Assembly (NCBI GenBank): GCA_024695285.1
Contig: JAILIM010000007.1
Span: forward strand, 1-8,075
DNA length: 8,075 nucleotides
Reading direction: 5' to 3'
From: Bacteroidales bacterium
Lineage (GTDB): Bacteria; Bacteroidota; Bacteroidia; Bacteroidales; UBA932
The notes beneath the pieces are model-generated. The model saw only the letters and a list, made by a program, of their open reading frames with translations, was not told the origin of the DNA and searched no databases. Positions 183-8,075 of the stretch are shown piece by piece; within the stretch, counting starts at the first letter, position 1, and each line of letters starts with the position of its first letter. A program made the position numbers and the translations under genes.

Positions 183-317
183 ATGACTGACACCAAGTAC
201 CCGTACCGCACTCCGGAGACCGAGTCGGCCGCACCGATCCACAGCGCGGAACTGCTGTGCGAGAGCCCCGGACAGGGCTCCAATGAGGATCTGACCTTTG
301 AAAATTGGGACATCTAG
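183..317 (+). CDS. 44-aa small protein, copy 1, coupled to the downstream lipoprotein
   Basis: This small frame starts MTDTKYPYRTPETE, has a central AELLCESPGQG with one cysteine (Cys26), and ends in an acidic NEDLTFENWDI. It has no signal peptide or membrane segment, so it is cytoplasmic unless exported by an unknown route. ATG183 was chosen over an in-frame ATG at 42 because the paralogue at 2987 then has exactly the same 44-codon length, and the earlier start would overlap the upstream gene deeply. From codon 7 on, the two copies differ at 11 codons, 8 of them silent, as expected for a selected protein. The stop TAG is 4 nt before the lipoprotein ATG, so translational coupling is likely. 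From memory, short ORFs with a Pro/Glu-rich start, a (L)LC-S centre and an acidic, Trp-containing end occur ahead of Bacteroidales surface-protein genes; I cannot name a family. No function is assigned. It may be a small protein or a leader peptide. Confidence 0.72.
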   Translation: MTDTKYPYRTPETESAAPIHSAELLCESPGQGSNEDLTFENWDI

Positions 318-411
318 CGCTATGAAAAGGATTTATGCACTGATGCTTGCAGCCGCCTGTGCGATATGCCTGGCGGGCTGCACCAGGGAAATCCTCGTAA
401 GCGACGAGGCC
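199..411 (+). repeat. Direct repeat copy 1: small ORF, start junction and lipoprotein signal sequence
   Basis: This 213-nt block matches 3003-3215 without any indel. From 199 to 381 (most of the small ORF, the 4-nt junction and the signal peptide through Cys20) I count 14 mismatches in 183 positions. The following 30 nt match at only about two thirds of positions, and similarity then falls to the protein level. The first 35 nt are identical. The repeat marks the boundaries of a duplicated cassette. Confidence 0.9.
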
Positions 412-2961
412 GTCGCCAATCAGGAAACGACTCCCGGAGAAACCCTTACCCTCACGCATGAGGGCTGCTTCGTCTCCAATAGCGGAACCCCCGACACCAA
501 AACCATAGTCAAAAACAACAAAGAGGTCTGGTGGTTTGATGACGATGCTATAAACGTGTATGCGGCAGACGAGAGTTACGCATATGAATATATAAGCAAA
601 CTTGAGCCGGGGGCGTCGGCGAAGACCACCACCTTCGAGTTGAAGTACACCTGGGAAGATCCGTTTACCTACACAGGCCCCTTAAAATCCCCTGGGACCA
701 AGGCTGCCACCGCCAAGTATTATGCAATTTACCCCCGCTATAAAATAAGTTATACAAAAATGATTGCCGGATACGACGGAGATTATGACAGCCAGAAAGG
801 AGAAATCCAGATGCAAGTCGTTAACCGTCAATATCCGATGGTGAATGAGGTCAGGCACCTTCCATCTTTCGGCGTATTCAACGCCGGTGCGTCAGGCGTA
901 ACATTGAAAGCCGTTTGCGGAGGCCTGAAATTCCGTCTCTCACGCAATGACATCACCAAAATAATATTCACGGCAGACAGCCAGCACGGCATCTGTGGAC
1001 ATTTCATCCTGACAGGACTTGAAGGAACACCGAGAGTTAAGGAAGTCATCAGCGGGAGCAATGTCATAACGATAACTCCAAGCGAATGGAATGAATCGTG
1101 GTCTTCCTCTGTATCGGCAAGAACCTTCAAGGCCGGAGAGGATTATTTCATTGTCATGATACCGGGAACCATCAATGGATTTACCGCGAAACTCTCTACA
1201 ACCAGCGGAGATTACATCGAAGTCGCCAGCTCGAAGGCACAGACAGTCAAGGCCGGTGTTTTCGGTGAGCTTGCAAAGCCACTGGATCAGTATGGAACAT
1301 ATGTGCATCCAGTTCCCGAGGCCGTTGACCTGGGGCTCCCTTCCGGAGTGAAATGGGCTTCGTTCAACCTGGGGGCGTCATCCGTCGAAGACCGCGGAGT
1401 CTCTTACTGCTGGGGTGAGACTGAGCCGTATTTTGGCTATATGAAAGACGATGAGGAGTATAAATGGTGCGACAGTAACGGCAAGCTCACGAAGTACAAC
1501 TACGTCAGCGCCTATGGAGTCCAGGACTTCAAGTCGGTTCTCGACCTTGAAGACGACGCCGCACACGCCGCATTGGGCGGGGACTGGCGCATGCCGAACG
1601 AAGATGAATTTAAAGAGCTTAGCAGTAATTGTACAAAGGAATATGTGACTGTGAACGGAGTGAATTGCTGCAAATTCATATCCAATATTAATGCCGCCTC
1701 CATTATCATGGCCTCCGGCACAATGTGTTCCAATCTTGCCTTCGGTTACCCGTGGTATTATAACTATCATGCGCCAGGTTCAATAGAGCGTCTTGCCCGC
1801 GTTAATGCAAATGTTGTCCGACCGGTTTATGGCAAATACGTACCGGCGACTTCAATTCAAATCAATCACGAAAGTCTCAGATTGACCAAGGGGGATAGAA
1901 AGACGATGTGGATTACCGTCTTGCCCGACAATGCCACGGCGAAGAATTGGACTGCAATCAGTAGCGATGAGTCTGTCGCTACTTGCTCGTATGATGAATA
2001 CGGCGTGCGTGTCAGTGGCAAATCTTACGGCAAAGCTACCATAACGGTATATCCTTCAAGCGGAATCGAAGGTACTCCGGCGAGTTTTGAAGTTACCGTC
2101 GCCAAAGATCCCGAGTACGTCGACCTCGGCCTGAGCGTCAAGTGGGCCAAGTGGAACGTCGGAGCCAACACTCCCGAGGAGTACGGCAACTACTACGCCT
2201 GGGGAGAAACCACGCCCAAGGACGTTTATTCCTGGGGTACGTACCTCTGGTGCAACGGTACCGACCATACCCTCACCAAGTACAACGGCCGCAGCGAATA
2301 CGGCTCGGTGGTTGACCACATATCCCTCCTGAGCGACACCGATGATGTGGCTAAAGCCGAATGGAAGGGCCTGTGGCGCATGCCGACATACGCGGAAATC
2401 CAGGAACTGAGACAGAACTGCACATGGACCTGGACTGATGATTACAACGGGACCGGCATCAAGGGCTATGAGGTAACCGGCAACGGCAACAGTATTTTCC
2501 TCCCCGCCGCTGGTCGTAAGCAAGACAACGCATTATCAAACGACGGCAAATACGGGTATTATTGGGCCGGTACCGGAGCAACCCGTGGCACGCCTTATAC
2601 AGCCCATGATCTTTTCTTCCGCAATGGATATGAAGACAATACCGTTAATAAACGATTCTACGGCTTTTCTGTCAGGCCAGTATATGGCGAGTTCATACCG
2701 GTTGACTCGATAGAACTGAACCCTTACGATTTAACCATAGTGATTGGAGACAGTTGTGGGCTCAGTGTAATGTATGGTCCGAAGGGCTACTCTCAGGCAA
2801 CGAGCGCCGACTGGATTTCGGACAATCCTTCAGTTGCAACCGTAAGCAGCGAGGGCGTGGTTAAAGGTGTTGGCATAGGTTCCGCAAATATTACGGCCTA
2901 TTCATACAATGGCTTAAGCGCCACCTGCCAGGTATACGTAGTTGAGGATTCTCCGGAGTAG
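322..2961 (+). CDS. Lipoprotein with fimbrillin-like N-terminus and two VDLGL-module/Ig-like pairs
   Basis: The protein has 879 residues from ATG322. The in-frame TTG at 298 lies inside the small ORF and would place eight residues before a perfect lipoprotein signal, so it was rejected. Residues 1-20 are a signal peptide ending in the lipobox LAGC (Cys20). Residues about 21-325 look fimbrillin-like: TPDTKT (56-61), VWWFDDDAINVYA (69-81), a YYAIYPR segment, GGLKF (200-204), YFIVMIPG and KAGVFG (310-315). Two modules (334-504 and 597-789) alternate with two Ig-like domains (507-593 and 792-874). The second Ig-like domain has a canonical SDNPSVATV...GVVKGVGIG pattern. Module 1 is short and diverged in its second half. 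The protein probably sits on the outer membrane surface as a pilus-related or stand-alone adhesin; its ligand is unknown. It starts 4 nt after the 44-aa ORF and is followed after 25 nt by the second cassette. Domain calls are by motif reading, not a profile search. Confidence 0.93.
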   Translation: MKRIYALMLAAACAICLAGCTREILVSDEAVANQETTPGETLTLTHEGCFVSNSGTPDTKTIVKNNKEVWWFDDDAINVYAADESYAYEYISKLEPGASAKTTTFELKYTWEDPFTYTGPLKSPGTKAATAKYYAIYPRYKISYTKMIAGYDGDYDSQKGEIQMQVVNRQYPMVNEVRHLPSFGVFNAGASGVTLKAVCGGLKFRLSRNDITKIIFTADSQHGICGHFILTGLEGTPRVKEVISGSNVITITPSEWNESWSSSVSARTFKAGEDYFIVMIPGTINGFTAKLSTTSGDYIEVASSKAQTVKAGVFGELAKPLDQYGTYVHPVPEAVDLGLPSGVKWASFNLGASSVEDRGVSYCWGETEPYFGYMKDDEEYKWCDSNGKLTKYNYVSAYGVQDFKSVLDLEDDAAHAALGGDWRMPNEDEFKELSSNCTKEYVTVNGVNCCKFISNINAASIIMASGTMCSNLAFGYPWYYNYHAPGSIERLARVNANVVRPVYGKYVPATSIQINHESLRLTKGDRKTMWITVLPDNATAKNWTAISSDESVATCSYDEYGVRVSGKSYGKATITVYPSSGIEGTPASFEVTVAKDPEYVDLGLSVKWAKWNVGANTPEEYGNYYAWGETTPKDVYSWGTYLWCNGTDHTLTKYNGRSEYGSVVDHISLLSDTDDVAKAEWKGLWRMPTYAEIQELRQNCTWTWTDDYNGTGIKGYEVTGNGNSIFLPAAGRKQDNALSNDGKYGYYWAGTGATRGTPYTAHDLFFRNGYEDNTVNKRFYGFSVRPVYGEFIPVDSIELNPYDLTIVIGDSCGLSVMYGPKGYSQATSADWISDNPSVATVSSEGVVKGVGIGSANITAYSYNGLSATCQVYVVEDSPE
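1321..1833 (+). repeat. VDLGL module 1 of the first lipoprotein (diverged)
   Basis: Residues 334-504. The first half is typical (AVDLGLPSGVKWASFNLGA, CWGETEP, DLEDDAAHAALGGDWRMP). The second half lacks the usual WTWTDDYNGTG and SIFLPAAG motifs and reads NCCKFISN...ASIIMASGTMC before VVRPVYG. It is about 20-30 residues shorter than its siblings. Confidence 0.8.
1840..2100 (+). repeat. Ig-like (BIG_2-type) domain 1 of the first lipoprotein
   Basis: Residues 507-593 read VPATSIQINHESLRLTKGD, then TVLPDNATAKNWTAISSDES, VATCSYD, GKATITVYPSSG and end FEVTV. The pattern of a Pro-Asn-Ala-Thr strand, S(S/D)-SVAT and an alternating Thr-rich last strand fits bacterial Ig-like group 2 domains that act as spacers in surface proteins. 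Confidence 0.75.
2110..2688 (+). repeat. VDLGL module 2 of the first lipoprotein ('LSVKWA' subtype)
   Basis: Residues 597-789: PEYVDLGLSVKWAKWNVGAN, YYAWGETTP, LWRMPTYAEIQEL, CTWTWTDDYNGTG, SIFLPAAG, YGYYWAG and FSVRPVYG. It lacks the PSG insertion of the 'LPSGTKWA' subtype. Its first 40 nt are identical to 5721-5760 in the second lipoprotein gene. Confidence 0.88.
2695..2943 (+). repeat. Ig-like (BIG_2-type) domain 2 of the first lipoprotein, C-terminal
   Basis: Residues 792-874, with VDSIELNPYDL, SDNPSVATVSSEG, VVKGVGIGSANITAYS and NGLSATCQVYVV. It closely resembles the third Ig-like domain of the second lipoprotein (SVATYASG, MVKGVGIGTATLTFY). Unlike the second lipoprotein, this protein ends on the Ig-like domain, so a terminal module may have been lost here or never added. 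Confidence 0.85.
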
Positions 2962-2986
2962 ATTTGCAGTTCAAACAAGATTCAGA

Positions 2987-3121
2987 ATGATAATACAAAA
3001 ACACCCGTACCGCACTCCGGAGACCGAGTCGGCCGCAACGATCCACGGCGCGGAGCTGCTGTGCGAAAGCCCCGGACAGGGTTCCAACGAAGATTTGACC
3101 TTTGAAAACTGGGAGATTTAG
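2987..3121 (+). CDS. 44-aa small protein, copy 2, coupled to the second lipoprotein
   Basis: The frame runs ATG2987 to TAG3119-3121 and gives 44 residues, the same length as copy 1. It begins MIIQKHPYRTPETE and continues SAATIHGAELLCESPGQG to NEDLTFENWEI. Only the first six residues are freely diverged. Over codons 7-44 the changes are Pro18Thr, Ser21Gly and Asp43Glu plus eight silent ones. It starts 25 nt after the previous lipoprotein stop and ends 4 nt before the next start, with GGGAGA at 3111-3116 as a possible weak ribosome site for the lipoprotein, about 9 nt from its ATG. No signal peptide or membrane helix is visible and function is unknown. A size cut-off in ordinary annotation would easily miss it. 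Confidence 0.75.
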   Translation: MIIQKHPYRTPETESAATIHGAELLCESPGQGSNEDLTFENWEI

Positions 3122-3215
3122 CGCCATGAAAAGGATTTATGTACTGATGCTTGCAGCCGCCTGCGCGATATGCCTGGCGGGCTGCGTGAAGGAGATTCTC
3201 GGCGCCGACGAGGCC
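3003..3215 (+). repeat. Direct repeat copy 2: small ORF, start junction and lipoprotein signal sequence
   Basis: Partner of the block at 199-411, the same length with no gaps. The signal-peptide part (3126-3185) differs from copy 1 at only two of 60 positions (Ala6Val and one silent change), whereas the mature N-terminal domains that follow are much less alike. Confidence 0.9.
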
Positions 3216-6200
3216 ATCGCCCCGGCAACAGAAATGATCATCTGCGGCACGATGGGAGACCTCGTGGAAGACGGCGCCCAGGCGACGACTGACACCCCGG
3301 ACACCCGCACCCAGGTGAGGAACACCAAAGAGGTCTGGTGGATTTACACCGACCGGATCGCCGTGTTCATGTCGACCAGCACCACGGCGAGCGAGTTCAC
3401 GTCTACACTTACCAGCGGTATGTCCAAGACGTCATATTTCAGCGGTACTCTCAAGAAGACGGGAAGCAAATACTACGTCGGATATCCCTCCGGCGGAGCG
3501 GAATACAGCACGTCTTCGGACGGCACGCTGAGCCTCAGGGTGCCGTCCAGCCAGACGGCAGTATCCGGCTCTTTCAGCTCCAACACGCTTCCGTCATACG
3601 GTTCGTTCACATCGAGTTCCAAAAACTTCACCATGAAGCCTGCTGCCGGCGGTCTGAAGTTCCACGTCAGCCGCGACGACATCAAGATCGTGAAGTTCGA
3701 AGGCAACAACGGCGAGAAAGTGGCGGGGAAGGTAACGGTGGCAAAGCTCAGCAAGACTCCGGACATCAGCCGCAGCAGCAGCGGCGGCTCTACGAGCATC
3801 ACCCTCAAGCGTTCCTCCGGCAACCTGGAGAAGGATAAGAATTACTTCATCGTAATCACCCCGGGAAGCCTCTCCAAGGGCTTTACCATCACCCTTACCA
3901 CCGAGGGCGGCGAGTCTCTTGTTGTCACGAGCACCAAGTCCCGCACCATCAAGGCGGGTGTATTCGGCACGCTCTCCAAGGCGCTTGACGAATATGCGGA
4001 GCAGACTTCCGAGGCGATCGACCTGGGGCTTCCTTCCGGAACGAAGTGGGCTACATTCAATCTTGGAGCCACTAAGCCGGAGGGGTATGGAGATTACTTC
4101 GCCTGGGGCGAGACAGCGGCAAAGTCTGACTACAGCTGGTCAAATTATGCGCTTTGCAACGACGATAAAACTACTCTCAAAAGGTATAACACCAGCAGCG
4201 ACTATGGCTCCACGGTGGACTATAAGAGTGTACTTAACGCCACGGACGATGCTGCCAGTGTAATATGGGGAAATAATTGGCGGACGCCCACATATGCAGA
4301 ATGGATGGAACTCGAGTCGAATTGCACCTGGACATGGACTGATGATTACAATCAGACCGGAATCAAGGGCGAAGTCGTAACAGGCAGCAACGGCAACAGT
4401 ATTTTCCTTCCCTCCGCGGGCTATATGGAAGACGCCAATCTCTACGAAGACGGTTCCCACGGAAACTATTGGGCTTCTTCCCTTTATACGCGCAACCCGA
4501 TTGAAGCGTTTCGTGTATACTTTTATCCTGACGATATGGGCATGGGCACCAGCTCTCGCTACTTTGGGTTCTCAATTCGCCCCGTTTATGGTAAACTGGT
4601 TCCGGTTACCGGAGTGTCCCTGCCTGGAGAGACCATCCAGGTCGGCATCGGCAAGAGAGCTTCGTACCAGATAACGTTCACGCCTTCAAATGCCACAGAT
4701 AAGTCCATAACGGTCAAGATTGCCGATAAAAGTATTGCATCATTCACGTATAATACCACCACCGGTATCATAACCCTCGACGGCCTCGCCTCCGGCACGA
4801 CTACTATGACGGTCTACGCCAGCAGCGGCGTCAGCGCCACCTGCGAGATCAAGGTCGCCATCGAACCGGAGTACGTCGATCTGGGGCTTCCTTCCGGCAC
4901 CAAGTGGGCTAAGTGGAACGTCGGCGCCAACAAGCCGGAGGAGTACGGCGAGTACTTCGCCTGGGGTGAGACAGAGGCTAATTCTGATTACGATTGGTCA
5001 ACATACAAGTATTGCAACGGCAGCAAGACTACTCTTACCAAGTACAACACCAGCATCGAGTATGGCTCCGTGGTTGACTACAAGAGTGTACTGGATCCGG
5101 AGGATGATGCGGCCAGCGCCAATTGGGGCGAACAGTGGCGAACACCGACACGTGCAGAGTTGACAGAATTACATGATAGTTGTACCTGGACATGGACTGA
5201 TAATTACAACGGAACCGGAATCGCGGGCCAGGTCGTAACAGGCAGCAACGGCAACTTTATTTTTCTTCCTGCCTCAGGCCTTCGGAGTGGCACAGAGTTA
5301 TTCAATGTCGGTTCCGGCAGCACCTTCTGGGCTTCTTCCATCGATGTGGACAGCCCGGTTAGTGCATGGCTTATCGCCTTTAATTCCAGCGGTGCCAGAG
5401 TGTACGGCAACTACCGCGGAGCTGGATTCTCGATCCGCCCGGTCTATGGCAAACTTGTTCCGGTGACGGGGGTGTCCCTGTCTGAAGAGAACATCCATGT
5501 CACTGCAGGCCAGAGTTTCTCGTGCCAGGTCACACTCTCGCCATCAAATGCCACCGAAACTACACTGAAAGTTGTTCTAGATAGAAACGTTGCATTATAT
5601 CATTATTATCCTGACACCAATATATTATCTGTCACTGGTGTCGAGGCCGGCACTACCACCATGACGGTCTATGGCAGCAGCGGCGTAAGCGCCTCTTGCC
5701 AAGTCACGGTCACTGGAAGACCCGAGTACGTCGACCTCGGCCTGAGCGTCAAGTGGGCCACCTTCAACATCGGAGCAAGCGCGCCTGACGGATACGGCAA
5801 CTACTACGCCTGGGGCGAAAAGGATGCGAAGAGCAGCTTCAGCTGGAGCAACCACCTCTGGGGTGGCAGCGCAAGCACCATCTCCAAGTACAACCTCCTC
5901 AGCTCCAACGGCACCGTTGACCACAAGCGCACCCTGGATCTTGACGACGATGCCGCCAGGGCCGAATGGGGTGGAGACTGGCGACTGCCGACGCTGGAAG
6001 AATTCAGCGAACTCAGGAACACCTCCAACTGCACCTGGACCTGGACTACCCAGGGCGGCAGGTACGGTTACAAGGTAACAAGCAAGAAGAGCGGACACAC
6101 CGACAAATCCATCTTCCTGCCTGCTGCCGGTTCGTACGACGGATCAAGCGTCTCCGGCACAGGGTCATACGTAAGGTACTGGACATCAACTCCCAATTCT

Positions 6201-7160
6201 TCCGATTACAGTAAGTCCAATGCGCTGACCGCCCAGCAGAGCAGCGTCGGATTCAGCACGTTAAACCGTTACCTCGGACTTCCGATCCGTCCGGTTTACG
6301 GTAGTTTCACTCCCGTTAACGGCCTGACGGTTGACACATACATCACAGTAAAGGTTGGTACGACCGCAAGTATCAACGTGAAATTCTCACCTTCCCACCC
6401 AAGCGACAAGAGCCTGGAGGTCATCAGCAGCGACAGCTCCGTAGCCACCTATGCAAGTGGTATGGTCAAGGGTGTCGGTATCGGTACCGCAACACTCACA
6501 TTCTATACGCACAACGGCATCTCCGCCACGTGTAAGGTGTCAGTCATCAAGGAGCCGGAGTATGTTGACCTGGGGCTTCCTTCCGGATTAAAGTGGGCAA
6601 AATGGAACGTCGGCGCCAACAAGCCGGAGGAGTATGGCGATTACTTCTCGTGGGGAGAGACGGAGCCGAAGAAGTCATATTATTTTTCAACGTATAAATT
6701 TGGATTAGGGGGGACTACAGCTAATGGTCCATACTCAAAGTACGTAAACGACTCCAAGTACGGTACTGTGGATAATAAATTAGTCCTTGACCCTGAAGAT
6801 GATGCAGCTCACGTCAACTGGGGCGGAAATTGGCGTATGCCGACAGATGAAGAATGGAAGGAATTAAAAGAGAATTGCAGCTGGGAATGGACCAGTGATT
6901 ACAATGGAACAGGTGTCGCTGGCCGGATAGTAACGGGTAAAGTGTCCGGTTACGAAAATAAATCCATTTTCCTTCCCGCCGCGGGCTACATGTGGTCCAC
7001 AGATCTCAAGGATTTGGGGTCCATAGGCTACTATTGGTCTTCATCCCTGTTTACGGAGCGTTCGGGCAGCGCGTGGCGCCTCTTCTTTAGTTCCACTGGT
7101 GTCAGCAGGTACAGTTACGGCCGTACCAGCGGGCACTCTATTCGTCCCGTCAAAAAATAA
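3126..7160 (+). CDS. Large lipoprotein with fimbrillin-like N-terminus, four VDLGL modules and three Ig-like domains
   Basis: The protein has 1344 residues from ATG3126; an in-frame TTG at 3102 lies inside the small ORF and was rejected. Residues 1-20 are a lipoprotein signal ending LAGC (Cys20). Residues about 21-290 look fimbrillin-like: TPDTRT (57-62), VWWIYTDRIAVF (70-81), YYVGYPSGG, GGLKF (175-179), YFIVITPG (240-247) and KAGVFG (276-281). Modules lie at 296-489, 580-775, 866-1059 and 1143-1344. Ig-like domains lie between them at 492-579, 778-862 and 1062-1142. The chain ends on a module with HSIRPVKK, as the upstream truncated gene ends on a related motif. Modules have conserved Trp/Gly-rich cores and variable loops before RPV, resembling the Fib_succ_major/DUF1566 and C-type-lectin-like families in layout. 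A cell-surface ligand-binding or pilus-associated role is inferred. A 10-bp hairpin begins at the stop codon, so this is probably the last gene of the operon. Confidence 0.94.
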   Translation: MKRIYVLMLAAACAICLAGCVKEILGADEAIAPATEMIICGTMGDLVEDGAQATTDTPDTRTQVRNTKEVWWIYTDRIAVFMSTSTTASEFTSTLTSGMSKTSYFSGTLKKTGSKYYVGYPSGGAEYSTSSDGTLSLRVPSSQTAVSGSFSSNTLPSYGSFTSSSKNFTMKPAAGGLKFHVSRDDIKIVKFEGNNGEKVAGKVTVAKLSKTPDISRSSSGGSTSITLKRSSGNLEKDKNYFIVITPGSLSKGFTITLTTEGGESLVVTSTKSRTIKAGVFGTLSKALDEYAEQTSEAIDLGLPSGTKWATFNLGATKPEGYGDYFAWGETAAKSDYSWSNYALCNDDKTTLKRYNTSSDYGSTVDYKSVLNATDDAASVIWGNNWRTPTYAEWMELESNCTWTWTDDYNQTGIKGEVVTGSNGNSIFLPSAGYMEDANLYEDGSHGNYWASSLYTRNPIEAFRVYFYPDDMGMGTSSRYFGFSIRPVYGKLVPVTGVSLPGETIQVGIGKRASYQITFTPSNATDKSITVKIADKSIASFTYNTTTGIITLDGLASGTTTMTVYASSGVSATCEIKVAIEPEYVDLGLPSGTKWAKWNVGANKPEEYGEYFAWGETEANSDYDWSTYKYCNGSKTTLTKYNTSIEYGSVVDYKSVLDPEDDAASANWGEQWRTPTRAELTELHDSCTWTWTDNYNGTGIAGQVVTGSNGNFIFLPASGLRSGTELFNVGSGSTFWASSIDVDSPVSAWLIAFNSSGARVYGNYRGAGFSIRPVYGKLVPVTGVSLSEENIHVTAGQSFSCQVTLSPSNATETTLKVVLDRNVALYHYYPDTNILSVTGVEAGTTTMTVYGSSGVSASCQVTVTGRPEYVDLGLSVKWATFNIGASAPDGYGNYYAWGEKDAKSSFSWSNHLWGGSASTISKYNLLSSNGTVDHKRTLDLDDDAARAEWGGDWRLPTLEEFSELRNTSNCTWTWTTQGGRYGYKVTSKKSGHTDKSIFLPAAGSYDGSSVSGTGSYVRYWTSTPNSSDYSKSNALTAQQSSVGFSTLNRYLGLPIRPVYGSFTPVNGLTVDTYITVKVGTTASINVKFSPSHPSDKSLEVISSDSSVATYASGMVKGVGIGTATLTFYTHNGISATCKVSVIKEPEYVDLGLPSGLKWAKWNVGANKPEEYGDYFSWGETEPKKSYYFSTYKFGLGGTTANGPYSKYVNDSKYGTVDNKLVLDPEDDAAHVNWGGNWRMPTDEEWKELKENCSWEWTSDYNGTGVAGRIVTGKVSGYENKSIFLPAAGYMWSTDLKDLGSIGYYWSSSLFTERSGSAWRLFFSSTGVSRYSYGRTSGHSIRPVKK
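4011..4592 (+). repeat. VDLGL module A of the second lipoprotein
   Basis: Residues 296-489: EAIDLGLPSGTKWATFNLGA, YFAWGETA, NATDDAASVIWGNNWRTPTY, NCTWTWTDDYNQTG, SIFLPSAGY, NYWASSLY and FSIRPVYGKLVP. The YFYPDDMGMGTSSRY loop before the RPV motif is unique to this copy. Confidence 0.9.
4599..4862 (+). repeat. Ig-like domain A of the second lipoprotein
   Basis: Residues 492-579: VPVTGVSLPGETIQVGIG, FTPSNATDKSITVKIAD, SIASFTYN, LASGTTTMTVYASSGVSATC. The VxGVSL start, PSNATD strand and GTTTMTVY strand fit a BIG_2-like fold, although the SVAT motif is replaced by SIASF. Confidence 0.72.
4863..5450 (+). repeat. VDLGL module B of the second lipoprotein
   Basis: Residues 580-775: EPEYVDLGLPSGTKWAKWNV, YFAWGETEA, LDPEDDAASANWGEQWRTPT, CTWTWTDNYNGTG, FIFLPASGL, TFWASS and FSIRPVYGKLVP. 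It shares an exact 32-nt stretch with module D over the WNVGANKPEEY codons. Its loop before RPV (IAFNSSGARVYGNYRGAG) differs from every sibling. Confidence 0.9.
5457..5711 (+). repeat. Ig-like domain B of the second lipoprotein
   Basis: Residues 778-862: VPVTGVSLSEENIHVTAG, LSPSNATETTLKVVLDRN, then TNILSVTGVEAGTTTMTVYG and SSGVSASCQVTV. The middle part (about 5570-5640) is conspicuously AT-rich next to GC-rich ends. Confidence 0.72.
5721..6302 (+). repeat. VDLGL module C of the second lipoprotein ('LSVKWA' subtype)
   Basis: Residues 866-1059: PEYVDLGLSVKWATFNIGAS, YYAWGEKDAK, LDLDDDAARAEWGGDWRLPT, NCTWTWTTQGG, SIFLPAAGSYDG, RYWTSTPNSS and LPIRPVYGSFTP. It belongs with module 2 of the first lipoprotein. 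The segment before RPV is Ser/Gln-rich and unlike the others. Confidence 0.88.
6309..6551 (+). repeat. Ig-like (BIG_2-type) domain C of the second lipoprotein
   Basis: Residues 1062-1142: TPVNGLTVDTYITVKVGT, FSPSHPSDKSLEVISSDSS, VATYASGMVKGVGIGTATLT, NGISATCKVSVI. This is the most canonical BIG_2 pattern in the protein, with SSDSSVAT followed by a G-VKGVGIGTA turn. Confidence 0.85.
6552..7157 (+). repeat. VDLGL module D, C-terminal module of the second lipoprotein
   Basis: Residues 1143-1344: EPEYVDLGLPSGLKWAKWNV, YFSWGETEPKK, LDPEDDAAHVNWGGNWRMPT, NCSWEWTSDYNGTG, SIFLPAAGYM, GYYWSSSLF, SAWRLFFSSTG and HSIRPVKK. The YWSS...AW..FFSSG...RPV layout is like that of C-type-lectin-like variable domains at the ends of retroelement-diversified proteins. 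Part of the module (about 6670-6800) is AT-rich relative to the conserved blocks. Confidence 0.9.
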
Positions 7161-7186: not shown

Positions 7187-7197
7187 TGCCCCCCGAC

Positions 7198-7285
7198 TGC
7201 GCCAGGTAGGACATCAATTGTCCTATCTGGCGCAAAATCGGCCCATTATGCTCGTCGCAGGACATAAACTGTCCTATTAGGCGCA
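7198..7285. repeat. Two dyad-bearing repeat units spaced 51 nt apart
   Basis: Unit 1 (7198-7234) is a 16-bp inverted repeat, TGCGCCAGGTAGGACA against TGTCCTATCTGGCGCA, with one G-T pair and loop TCAAT. Unit 2 (about 7249-7285) keeps the inner dyad AGGACA-TAAAC-TGTCCT (7259-7275) and the right arm TGTCCTATTAGGCGCA, 14 of 16 matching, but its left arm has decayed. Both inner dyads have the same 5-nt spacer and lie exactly 51 nt apart. A further TTGTCCT is at 7297-7303. They could be operators, extra transcript-end hairpins or an intergenic palindromic repeat family. Confidence 0.75.
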
Positions 7286-7312
7286 CCCCGGCTCCATTGT
7301 CCTTTGTTAAAC

Positions 7313-7415: not shown

Positions 7416-8075
7416 ATGAAAAGACTTTTCACCATCCTTTTTGCTGCCGCGGCACTCGCAGTCGCAGCTACCGGTTGCTATGACGACTCATTCCTCCAGA
7501 GCCAGATCAACGAGCTCAAGGACCGCGTAGGCACCCTCGAGGAGCAGATGCGCACCGCCAACTCCAACATCGGCAACCTCACAACGCTCGTAGAGGCCCT
7601 CGGCAAGAAGCTCACCGTCACTTCCATCGAAGAGAAAGACGGCACCTACACCATCAACTTCTCCGAAGGCGCCCCCATAACTATAAAGAACGGCGTCAGC
7701 CCCCAGATCGGCGTCAAGCAAGACTCCGACGGCATTTACTACTGGACACTCAACGGCGACTGGCTCCTTGACGCCCAGGGCAACAAGCTCCGCGTCACCG
7801 GCCTCCCCGGTGAAAGCGCCACCGCCCCCAAGCTCGACATAGTCGATGGTTACTGGTACATCTCCACCGATGACGGCGCCACCTGGGAGAAGCTCGGCAA
7901 GGCCACCGGCGAAAACGGACAAGACGGCGACGCCTTCTTCAAAGCCATCGACTGGGATGCGGCCTACCTCTATTTAACCATGGCAGACGGCACCAAACTC
8001 ACCATCAGCCGCGGCACCTACGGCATCAAGCAGCTTGCGGTCGTGCCCGATTACAGCGACGGTTCTGTAATGATT
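7416..8075 (+). CDS. DUF4988-like coiled-coil lipoprotein (N-terminal 220 residues, partial)
   Basis: The frame from ATG7416 is open to the window edge. Residues 1-21 form a lipoprotein signal ending ATGC (Cys21). Residues about 26-62 are a heptad-like coiled coil (SQINELKDRVGTLEEQM). The next part, with VTSIEEKDGTYTINFSEG, ITIKNG, IGVKQDSDGIYYWTLNGDWL and LRVTG (66-129), matches my memory of the DUF4988 domain found at the N-terminus of Bacteroidales surface lipoproteins, including some polysaccharide-lyase-linked ones. The Gly-Lys-Asp collagen-like run often seen in this family is reduced here to short GENGQDG and PGES segments. A tandem of similar sub-repeats follows (LDIVDGYWYISTDDGATWEK). 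It has its own candidate promoter and is separated from the preceding operon by a hairpin. Codon third positions are strongly C-rich. The C-terminal, probably ligand-binding, part lies outside the window, so function cannot be stated. Confidence 0.9.
   Translation, partial: MKRLFTILFAAAALAVAATGCYDDSFLQSQINELKDRVGTLEEQMRTANSNIGNLTTLVEALGKKLTVTSIEEKDGTYTINFSEGAPITIKNGVSPQIGVKQDSDGIYYWTLNGDWLLDAQGNKLRVTGLPGESATAPKLDIVDGYWYISTDDGATWEKLGKATGENGQDGDAFFKAIDWDAAYLYLTMADGTKLTISRGTYGIKQLAVVPDYSDGSVMI

Follow-up and report, generated by a model that had tools for sequence, protein, structure and literature searches.

The two small open reading frames (ORFs) that precede lipoprotein genes in the window, i.e., the whole stretch of 8,075 nucleotides that was analyzed, belong to a large family for which neither Pfam nor NCBIfam has a name, and with a probability of roughly 70% they encode precursors of a dispersed Bacteroidales system of the RiPP type, comparable in its working to the linear polyphosphorylated peptides (LPP) of Bacillota. 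This reading builds on the family itself, the selection acting on it, its coupling to neighboring genes, the geometry of its motif, the content of an operon in relatives and the co-occurrence of small ORFs and operon.

The small ORFs of the window and their lipoprotein neighbors

As originally predicted, both ORFs encode 44 residues (Table 1) and end in TAG, followed by CGCT or CGCC and the ATG of the lipoprotein gene, and a recount over residues 7–44 returned the eight silent and three amino-acid changes. The predicted cores of both peptides are a single D/E change apart. Considering both strands of the window, the YxxP...Ser layout is present in two frames only, which are these two ORFs. The claim that a small ORF stands before each large lipoprotein holds for two of them but not for the third (7416–8075), which has none ahead. 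The likeness of the two copies runs on into the N-terminal residues of the lipoproteins (MKRIYALMLAAACAICLAGC and MKRIYVLMLAAACAICLAGC), and for this reason the pair of small ORF and lipoprotein judged by sequence most likely goes back to one duplication. The common 4-nt gap would therefore be inherited and not constitute independent evidence. This fixed distance is found in both window copies but is not a family trait, as in the family the commonest gap between the stop codon of the small ORF and the lipoprotein ATG is 12 nt with a range of −14 to 37.

Table 1. Features of the window, with positions counted from its first nucleotide.
Feature	Position	Strand	Remarks
Small ORF 1, 44 aa	183..317	+	predicted RRE-guided precursor peptide
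YxxP motif of ORF 1 (Y8-R-T-P11)	204..215	+	predicted RRE-binding site, by analogy with PMC13381572
Predicted core of ORF 1, Cys26–Ile44 (C1-E2-S3...)	258..314	+	putative
Predicted cleavage of ORF 1, Leu25|Cys26; predicted phosphosite Ser28	264..266 (Ser28)	+	register by analogy with LppA
Lipoprotein 1, 879 aa	322..2961	+	N-terminal type V pilin (FimA/Mfa) fold, Lcl_C/FISUMP-like (weak), Big_2 domains
TAGATTTG, −7 box (TAnnTTTG)	2959..2966	+	overlaps the lipoprotein 1 stop, 28 nt before ORF 2
Small ORF 2, 44 aa	2987..3121	+	predicted RRE-guided precursor peptide
YxxP motif of ORF 2	3008..3019	+	
Predicted core of ORF 2, Cys26–Ile44	3062..3118	+	putative; Ser28 at 3068–3070
Lipoprotein 2, 1344 aa	3126..7160	+	Lcl_C/FISUMP and Big_2 repeats

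The N-terminal 250 residues of lipoprotein 2 are 40% identical to those of lipoprotein 1. The likeness to type V pilins (FimA/Mfa) concerns the neighboring protein and not the small ORF, and the lipoproteins differ from these pilins by additional domains. Across the family, the neighbors have a lipoprotein signal in common and not one fold (pilin-like, GH3, Omp28/thioredoxin). The element TAGATTTG is the likely promoter of the unit of ORF 2 and lipoprotein 2, as its sequence suggests; TAnnTTTG is the −7 box consensus of Bacteroidota. It is found in the 100 nt preceding 46 of the 120 family ORFs, compared to 4.9 in shuffles.

A family of short peptides under selection

Of 120 distinct homologues examined in the genus of the window, 117 have a lipoprotein gene as their immediate downstream neighbor, showing that the originally noted coupling is conserved well beyond the window. 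Small ORFs were found in 107 of 151 genus genomes with up to 25 matches per genome, and the family model matched none of 500 antisense control segments. Sixty of the loci were drawn from profile matches listed without locus and are therefore biased to better scores; one locus (L007) was left out as a spurious match. In genome G121, a small ORF is present at 28 of 44 pilin-like lipoproteins examined and lacking at 14 to 16 of them, the 44 being those among the matches listed out of 49. No Pfam or NCBIfam family matched the small ORFs: Pfam gave one stray match for five peptides (SSV1_ORF_D-335, E 0.044, under its cut-off), and none of the NCBIfam models matched 10 family members.

That the ORF encodes a product under selection is supported by a pooled dN/dS of 0.178 (Fisher p 1e-43), obtained from 15 independent pairs of at least 60% identity with each ORF entered once; it amounts to 0.11 in the core and 0.23 in the leader. 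Moreover, YxxP is present in 120/120 distinct family peptides, and among the profile-found peptides a serine follows exactly 19 residues after the tyrosine in 108/120 cases in the genus and in 31/33 cases in family f111. Chance ORFs or mere spacer DNA copied together with duplicating lipoprotein genes, as might be suggested by the resemblance of the two window copies to one duplication, are already refuted by the dN/dS value, by the conservation of the motif across families and by the control segments, leaving next to no probability for this explanation.

The small ORF could alternatively act in cis, i.e., its translation or the stalling of the nascent chain would set lipoprotein translation, and the peptide would have no life of its own. 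This would be in line with the frequent position of the small ORF as first in the likely transcript, judged by the upstream TAnnTTTG, with the short gaps to the lipoprotein ATG, with the presence of Shine-Dalgarno-like motifs before 47 of 115 lipoproteins and only 5 of 120 small ORFs, and with a lower accessibility of the lipoprotein start (0.49 vs. 0.58, p 2e-7). However, RNA structure at the lipoprotein start is not in excess (mean z 0.16 across 115 loci, 4 of them below −2), the amino acids are conserved, most strictly in the core, and in 24 of the 33 loci of family f111 a long ORF ends no more than 60 nt ahead of the homologue. A purely cis-acting role also leaves unexplained the YxxP-19-Ser geometry and the co-occurrence with an unlinked PqqD/peptidase operon described below. 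It is thus improbable, and the regulatory leader peptide that had been considered for the window is disfavored, although translational coupling may exist besides the function of the peptide. An RNA attenuator was rejected for the same 115 loci due to the missing excess of structure. Regarding the proteins upstream of f111-type ORFs, their C-terminal pattern resembles a T9SS sorting domain; such a domain is not claimed, because neither NCBIfam nor Pfam returned a family of this kind for 10 of these tails at E ≤ 0.1.

Furthermore, the peptide might be a small dedicated chaperone or secretion helper of the neighboring surface protein, staying unmodified and intracellular. One peptide per surface protein, and neighbors that are alike in their lipoprotein signal and not in their fold, would suit such a helper. 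Against it stand the G121 neighbors devoid of a small ORF, the leader geometry and the operon association, which it does not explain, and the AlphaFold prediction, which gives no confident fold for the 44-aa peptide (mean pLDDT 59.6). For a precursor, the absent fold is neutral. The helper role appears quite improbable.

An unlinked operon fitting the motif

The YxxP...Ser layout led to an operon located elsewhere in the genome, which in relatives encodes an HprK-like kinase, a signal-peptidase-like protein, a PqqD recognition element and an ABC exporter. Both layout and operon had been overlooked in the original prediction; among the three roles suggested there, the small effector comes nearest to the precursor reading. 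Of the nine genus loci read, seven combine kinase, peptidase and PqqD, among them that of G001, the genome nearest to the window. In the order sample, 11 of the 14 genomes with small ORFs have all three in a single stretch. Several operon genomes are model seeds, but the seeds of A11 do not include G539, G362, G477, G519 or G236. A scan without masking under longer antisense frames revealed peptidase and kinase in L297, with 1/30 in the control.

The peptidase matches TIGR02228 (sigpep_I_arch; E 6e-9, under the curated cut-off) and SEC11A (E 1.4e-5), and that of L291 weakly matches Peptidase_S26 (E 0.018). Its invariant Ser35 and His73 are 38 residues apart (39 in LppS), whereas the invariant Asp88, a candidate for the third catalytic residue, follows His73 after 15 residues, the corresponding gap in LppS being 25. 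The kinase matches HprK_rel_A (TIGR04352) with E values from 1.6e-9 (L331) to a weak 0.004 (L291), all under the curated cut-off, and its P-loop SGTGKSTHS is invariant in seven sequences. PqqD matched TfuB1 (E 5.6e-6) and LppB (9x8z, E 0.0086). When the numbering is shifted by 18, as counted manually, its invariant Asn35 and Asp73 align with N33 and D70 of LppB, which hold the leader proline and tyrosine. PF05402 (PqqD) is over its cut-off in 127/151 genus genomes and in 13/14 small-ORF genomes of the order sample. Exporter domains (PF00664/PF00005) were found in L291, L295 and L331, and the exporters of the other loci were assigned by size and place only. The best NCBIfam models were MsbA (TIGR02203, E 3.8e-69) for L291 and CydC for L295, all below equivalog cut-offs. 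An NTP transferase (NTP_transf_5, PF14907, E 3.3e-33) is encoded in L343 of G229, a congener of the small-ORF genome G490, and none was noticed beside the genus operons. ORFs resembling it by appearance were seen in L330 and L334.

In the order sample, 13 of the 14 small-ORF genomes have the peptidase, compared to 9 of the 66 others (p 2e-8). Model seeds came from seven of these 14 genomes (G001, G262, G396, G446, G490, G508, G534); for the non-seed genomes, the comparison gives 6/7 vs. 9/66 (p 2e-4). The 14 were kept from 18 matched genomes; G198, G402, G217 and G240, none of which is among the 66 controls, were dropped because their matches could not convincingly be regarded as free-standing family ORFs. 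The nine control genomes with a peptidase are without profile-found small ORFs. The peptidase search missed that of G036 (L329), one of these nine, which was seen in another scan, and it therefore has false negatives. Within the genus the association is weak, the peptidase being present in 126 and small ORFs in 107 of the 151 genomes; G048 has 25 small-ORF matches and PqqD and no peptidase match, and in G444 neither peptidase nor PqqD matched. Across the genus, the presence of small ORFs correlates weakly with that of PqqD or the peptidase, and genome completeness acts as a confounder.

The nine genus operon loci contain no family match at E ≤ 1e-3. Since precursors and operon are unlinked in the genus, the identity of the substrate is something we infer. 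Outside the genus, the operon of control genome G170 has a candidate, a YxxP small ORF similar to the family (E 0.00097), immediately ahead of its kinase gene. Scanning 11 operon loci with a loose pattern showed another candidate between PqqD and kinase in G177, without profile support, and five further chance matches, antisense or misplaced.

The YxxP leader and the PqqD partner would also be compatible with ordinary lasso-peptide precursors, and the UniRef name of member P0025, from Xylanibacter muris, is "Benenodin family lasso peptide." However, the B2 peptidase (PF13471) is almost lacking in the genus, where small ORFs are so widespread: a single one of the 151 genomes exceeds the cut-off and 7 have a match at E ≤ 0.001. 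In addition, no NCBIfam model matched the 10 members mentioned above. Lasso peptides were rejected on the former ground and are very improbable.

Proposed maturation and comparison with known systems

In the preferred precursor reading, the PqqD-type recognition element would bind the YxxP of the leader, a SipW/Sec11-type serine peptidase would cut at the small-x-Ser site, which has a fixed spacing (Ser 19 residues after Tyr), between Leu25 and Cys26 in the LPP register, and the HprK-like kinase would phosphorylate Ser28. The ABC transporter would then export the short acidic core, which most often contains tryptophan. In the genus, the precursor genes are located apart from the machinery, each at a surface protein gene and probably on one transcript with it, upstream of pilin-fold and other lipoproteins here and downstream of long ORFs in f111. 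One shared enzyme set probably matures peptides that are each made with their own surface protein, and because each precursor gene sits at such a gene, the peptide probably acts with its surface protein or at the surface. It is conceivable, and more speculative, that one operon serves dozens of precursors, so that each adhesin-like lipoprotein or secreted protein with such a precursor is made with its own phosphorylated and exported peptide for binding, capping or marking it, which would represent a genome-wide surface peptide code and the first role assigned to an LPP-type system.

Gut and rumen Bacteroidales would likely possess an LPP equivalent in which every precursor is associated with a surface protein gene of its own, pointing to a role at the cell surface that becomes testable through one operon. 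Moreover, the precursor reading gives a reason for the many short ORFs without a name in Bacteroidales, and it may help to find out the function of such peptides.

Among known systems, the GG-leader RiPPs described in passages of PMC10352776 share small precursors with export and the same bacterial order. They differ in having GG motifs and peptidase-containing transporters, with radical SAM enzymes included, whereas YxxP and a separate peptidase are found here. Paeninodin-like phosphorylated lasso peptides, as outlined in parts of PMC13381572 and PMC7533575, have in common the [Y/W]xxP leader, a discrete RRE, an HprK-like kinase and an NTP transferase; here, in contrast, the B2 peptidase is nearly missing and the proposed leader peptidase is of the signal-peptidase type.

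The LPP core gene set, known from the lpp cluster of Paenibacillus alginolyticus, comprises kinase, SipW-like peptidase, PqqD and ABC exporter (PMC13381572). The discussion of that 2026 paper describes LPP as restricted to Bacillota and of unknown biological role, its section 6 places the peptidase cluster predominantly in Bacillota, and "bacteroid" has no occurrence in its main text. Among the papers listed in searches of the open PMC literature, no title or abstract start describes the small-ORF family or LPP in Bacteroidales. According to the passages of PMC13381572 considered, LPP clusters are often located at capsule loci, the first core residue is alanine, the Bacillota consensus is YxxPxVLxHQxIxFETxxS, and LPP maturation involves removal of the leader and multiple phosphorylation of Ser3 in the core. 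The system described here differs by its host phylum Bacteroidota, by genus precursors dispersed at surface protein genes outside the cluster, by a predicted core commonly starting with cysteine, and by the recurrence of only Y, P and S of the consensus. It resembles LPP, as characterized in the same passages, in the discrete PqqD-type RRE, the SipW/Sec11-like peptidase, the HprK-like kinase and the ABC exporter, with MsbA as the best model for one of the two exporters scanned with NCBIfam, and possibly in an NTP transferase (LppN), seen adjoining the operon in some families. Furthermore, both have a YxxP leader, a serine at near-equal distance (19 residues here, 18 in LPP) and a variable C-terminal part.

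The small ORF pair and its family

Taking all lines of evidence together, the two small ORFs of the window are best read, with a probability of roughly 70%, as members of a dispersed Bacteroidota variant of precursors of the type of the linear polyphosphorylated peptides (LPP) of Bacillota, which is paired with surface proteins. The original prediction holds in what it observed; its interpretation as a helper of lipoprotein synthesis or export, a regulatory leader peptide or a small effector is only partly supported, and a role of the peptide at the surface is a conjecture.

Both 44-aa ORFs are present as claimed and differ within residues 7-44 by three amino-acid and eight silent changes. Their likeness extends into the signal peptides of the two lipoproteins; most likely, therefore, both ORFs stem from one duplication, by which the common 4-nt gap would have been inherited. 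A fixed distance of 4 nt does not apply to the family, in which 12 nt is the commonest gap (27/115). The proposed pairing is seen for lipoproteins 1 and 2 and is absent for the DUF4988 lipoprotein, showing that it is not universal even inside the window. Two adjacent inverted repeats on AGGACA...TGTCCT, noticed by eye 3' of lipoprotein 2, are perhaps terminators or a mobile repeat.

Coordinates of features in the window and in two loci of relatives
Feature	Sequence	Position	Strand	Remark
Small ORF 1	window	183-317	+	44 aa
Lipoprotein 1	window	322-2961
Small ORF 2	window	2987-3121	+	44 aa
Lipoprotein 2	window	3126-7160
Inverted repeats	window	7196-7287
DUF4988 lipoprotein	window	7416-8075		after lipoprotein 2, without preceding small ORF
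Single open frame	L069 (= L133)	1501-2610
Family-like small ORF	L358 (G170)	2843-3019	-	E 0.00097

In the nearest genome searched (G001) the 44-aa query gave seven matches, six of them being small ORFs located 2-12 nt before a lipoprotein ATG. Profile searches found the family in 8/41 relatives and in 107/151 genus genomes with up to 25 matches per genome; the named relatives are the MAGs RUG12551 and RUG12750. The examined set of 124 copies, including both window ORFs, corresponds to 120 distinct peptides of 37-61 aa, and 117 of these are directly followed by a lipoprotein gene (115 identified by a lipobox rule and two, L062 and L189, on visual inspection). The three exceptions are L160 and L171 (convergent gene) and L210 (terminator-like stretch). 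The small ORFs of L160 and L171 are related and face similar convergent genes of 230-270 aa. At L069, family peptide and lipoprotein share a single open frame (YxxP...LCAS...MGIVCSSLLFLGTAC), which would be explained by natural fusion or by a start inside the frame.

TAnnTTTG, the Bacteroidota -7 box, occurs within 100 nt upstream of 46/120 small ORFs compared to 4.9 in shuffles, which probably often places the small ORF at the head of its transcript. In the genus loci, SD-like motifs are frequent before the lipoprotein start (47/115) and scarce before the small ORF (5/120), which is odd as Bacteroidota are said to use SD sequences little.

Selection, peptide layout and relatives outside the genus

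The predicted translation under selection is supported by a dN/dS of 0.178 (pS 0.408, pN 0.098) over 15 independent close pairs of small ORFs, with 0.28 before the Tyr of the YxxP motif, 0.23 in the leader and 0.11 in the predicted core. YxxP is present in 120/120 distinct peptides, Ser follows exactly at +19 from Tyr in 108/120 and Cys at +17 in 102/120. The part after the Ser has a mean length of 17.5 aa and a net charge of -4.8 and contains Trp in 91/117 peptides, these figures deriving from a looser pattern that presupposes the Ser and fits 117/120. The fixed distance between leader motif and predicted processing site suggests recognition of the motif by a PqqD-type recognition element (RRE).

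A related set exists outside the genus in the genome family f111 (104 matches in 13/15 genomes), with the Ser at +19 in 31/33 peptides. The profile of one set recognises that of the other (hhalign 97.4%), and cross-matches at E<0.01 were obtained for 84/109 and 32/33 peptides, for shuffled peptides none. In 24/33 f111 loci, a long ORF on the same strand ends no more than 60 nt upstream of the small ORF; unlike these, L067 precedes a lipoprotein. A further protein search yielded 138 relatives; among the 120 listed, the source names given read 'hypothetical protein' save one UniRef name. This one, P0025 from Xylanibacter muris, is named 'Benenodin family lasso peptide', yet no NCBIfam model matches it.

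A probable maturation operon in genomes with the small ORFs

PqqD (PF05402) scores above the cut-off in 127/151 genus genomes. In 7/9 genus PqqD loci examined, an HprK-like kinase (~300 aa), a signal-peptidase-like protein (~150 aa) and an ABC exporter accompany PqqD (89 aa); the kinase is missing at the PqqD locus L295. In the order sample, kinase, peptidase and PqqD lie in one stretch in 11/14 small-ORF genomes (G001, G519, G262, G446, G490, G508, G362, G534, G236, G539, G477) and are scattered across ~4 kb of a single contig in G206; G396 has no kinase within 7.5 kb and G444 none of the three. In other genomes, the peptidase adjoins PqqD in 1/30 high-scoring PqqD loci (G036). A peptidase search of 80 genomes gave 13/14 small-ORF genomes versus 8/66 others, or 9/66 with G036, which this search had missed (Fisher p 2e-8), and 6/7 versus 9/66 (p 2e-4) without the seed genomes. 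G170 is counted among these nine; its small ORF was found after counting and the group was left unchanged.

This small ORF (L358) carries YxxP, directly precedes the operon's kinase gene and has its Ser at +18, as in LPP, making it a candidate for a cluster-linked precursor. G048 (L293, L052, L158) has 25 small-ORF matches and no signal-peptidase-like match, and the PqqD match read there (L293) has no partner gene and lies outside the usual operon; the absent peptidase match may reflect a gap in the assembly or another peptidase acting in its place. G013 is the sole genus genome of 151 with a lasso B2 peptidase above cut-off (L299), ~6 kb from a PqqD match, and possibly holds a true lasso cluster.

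Comparison with LPP

In the LPP report, LPP genes encode a SipW-like peptidase, an RRE, an HprK-like kinase, an NTP transferase and an MsbA-like exporter, the precursor carries YxxP, is cleaved after position -1 and phosphorylated on Ser3, and N33 and D70 of the RRE LppB hold the leader Pro and Tyr (PMC13381572). The residues aligned with this N33 and D70 are invariant in nine PqqD sequences of relatives. In their signal-peptidase-like protein, which matches SEC11A, Ser35 and His73 are invariant. Asp88, invariant as well, is a candidate counterpart of the catalytic Asp of LppS and lies 15 residues after His73 (25 in LppS). Placed in the LPP register, both window peptides would have their cleavage site at Leu25|Cys26 and their phosphosite at Ser28; alternatively, the cut may fall after Ser28 according to small-x-Ser, the signal peptidase rule. 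In contrast to LPP, small ORFs and operon are unlinked in the genus and the peptides lack the full LPP leader consensus, and therefore they are not filed as LPP proper. By analogy, we propose a system which, short of LPP proper, would work like LPP.
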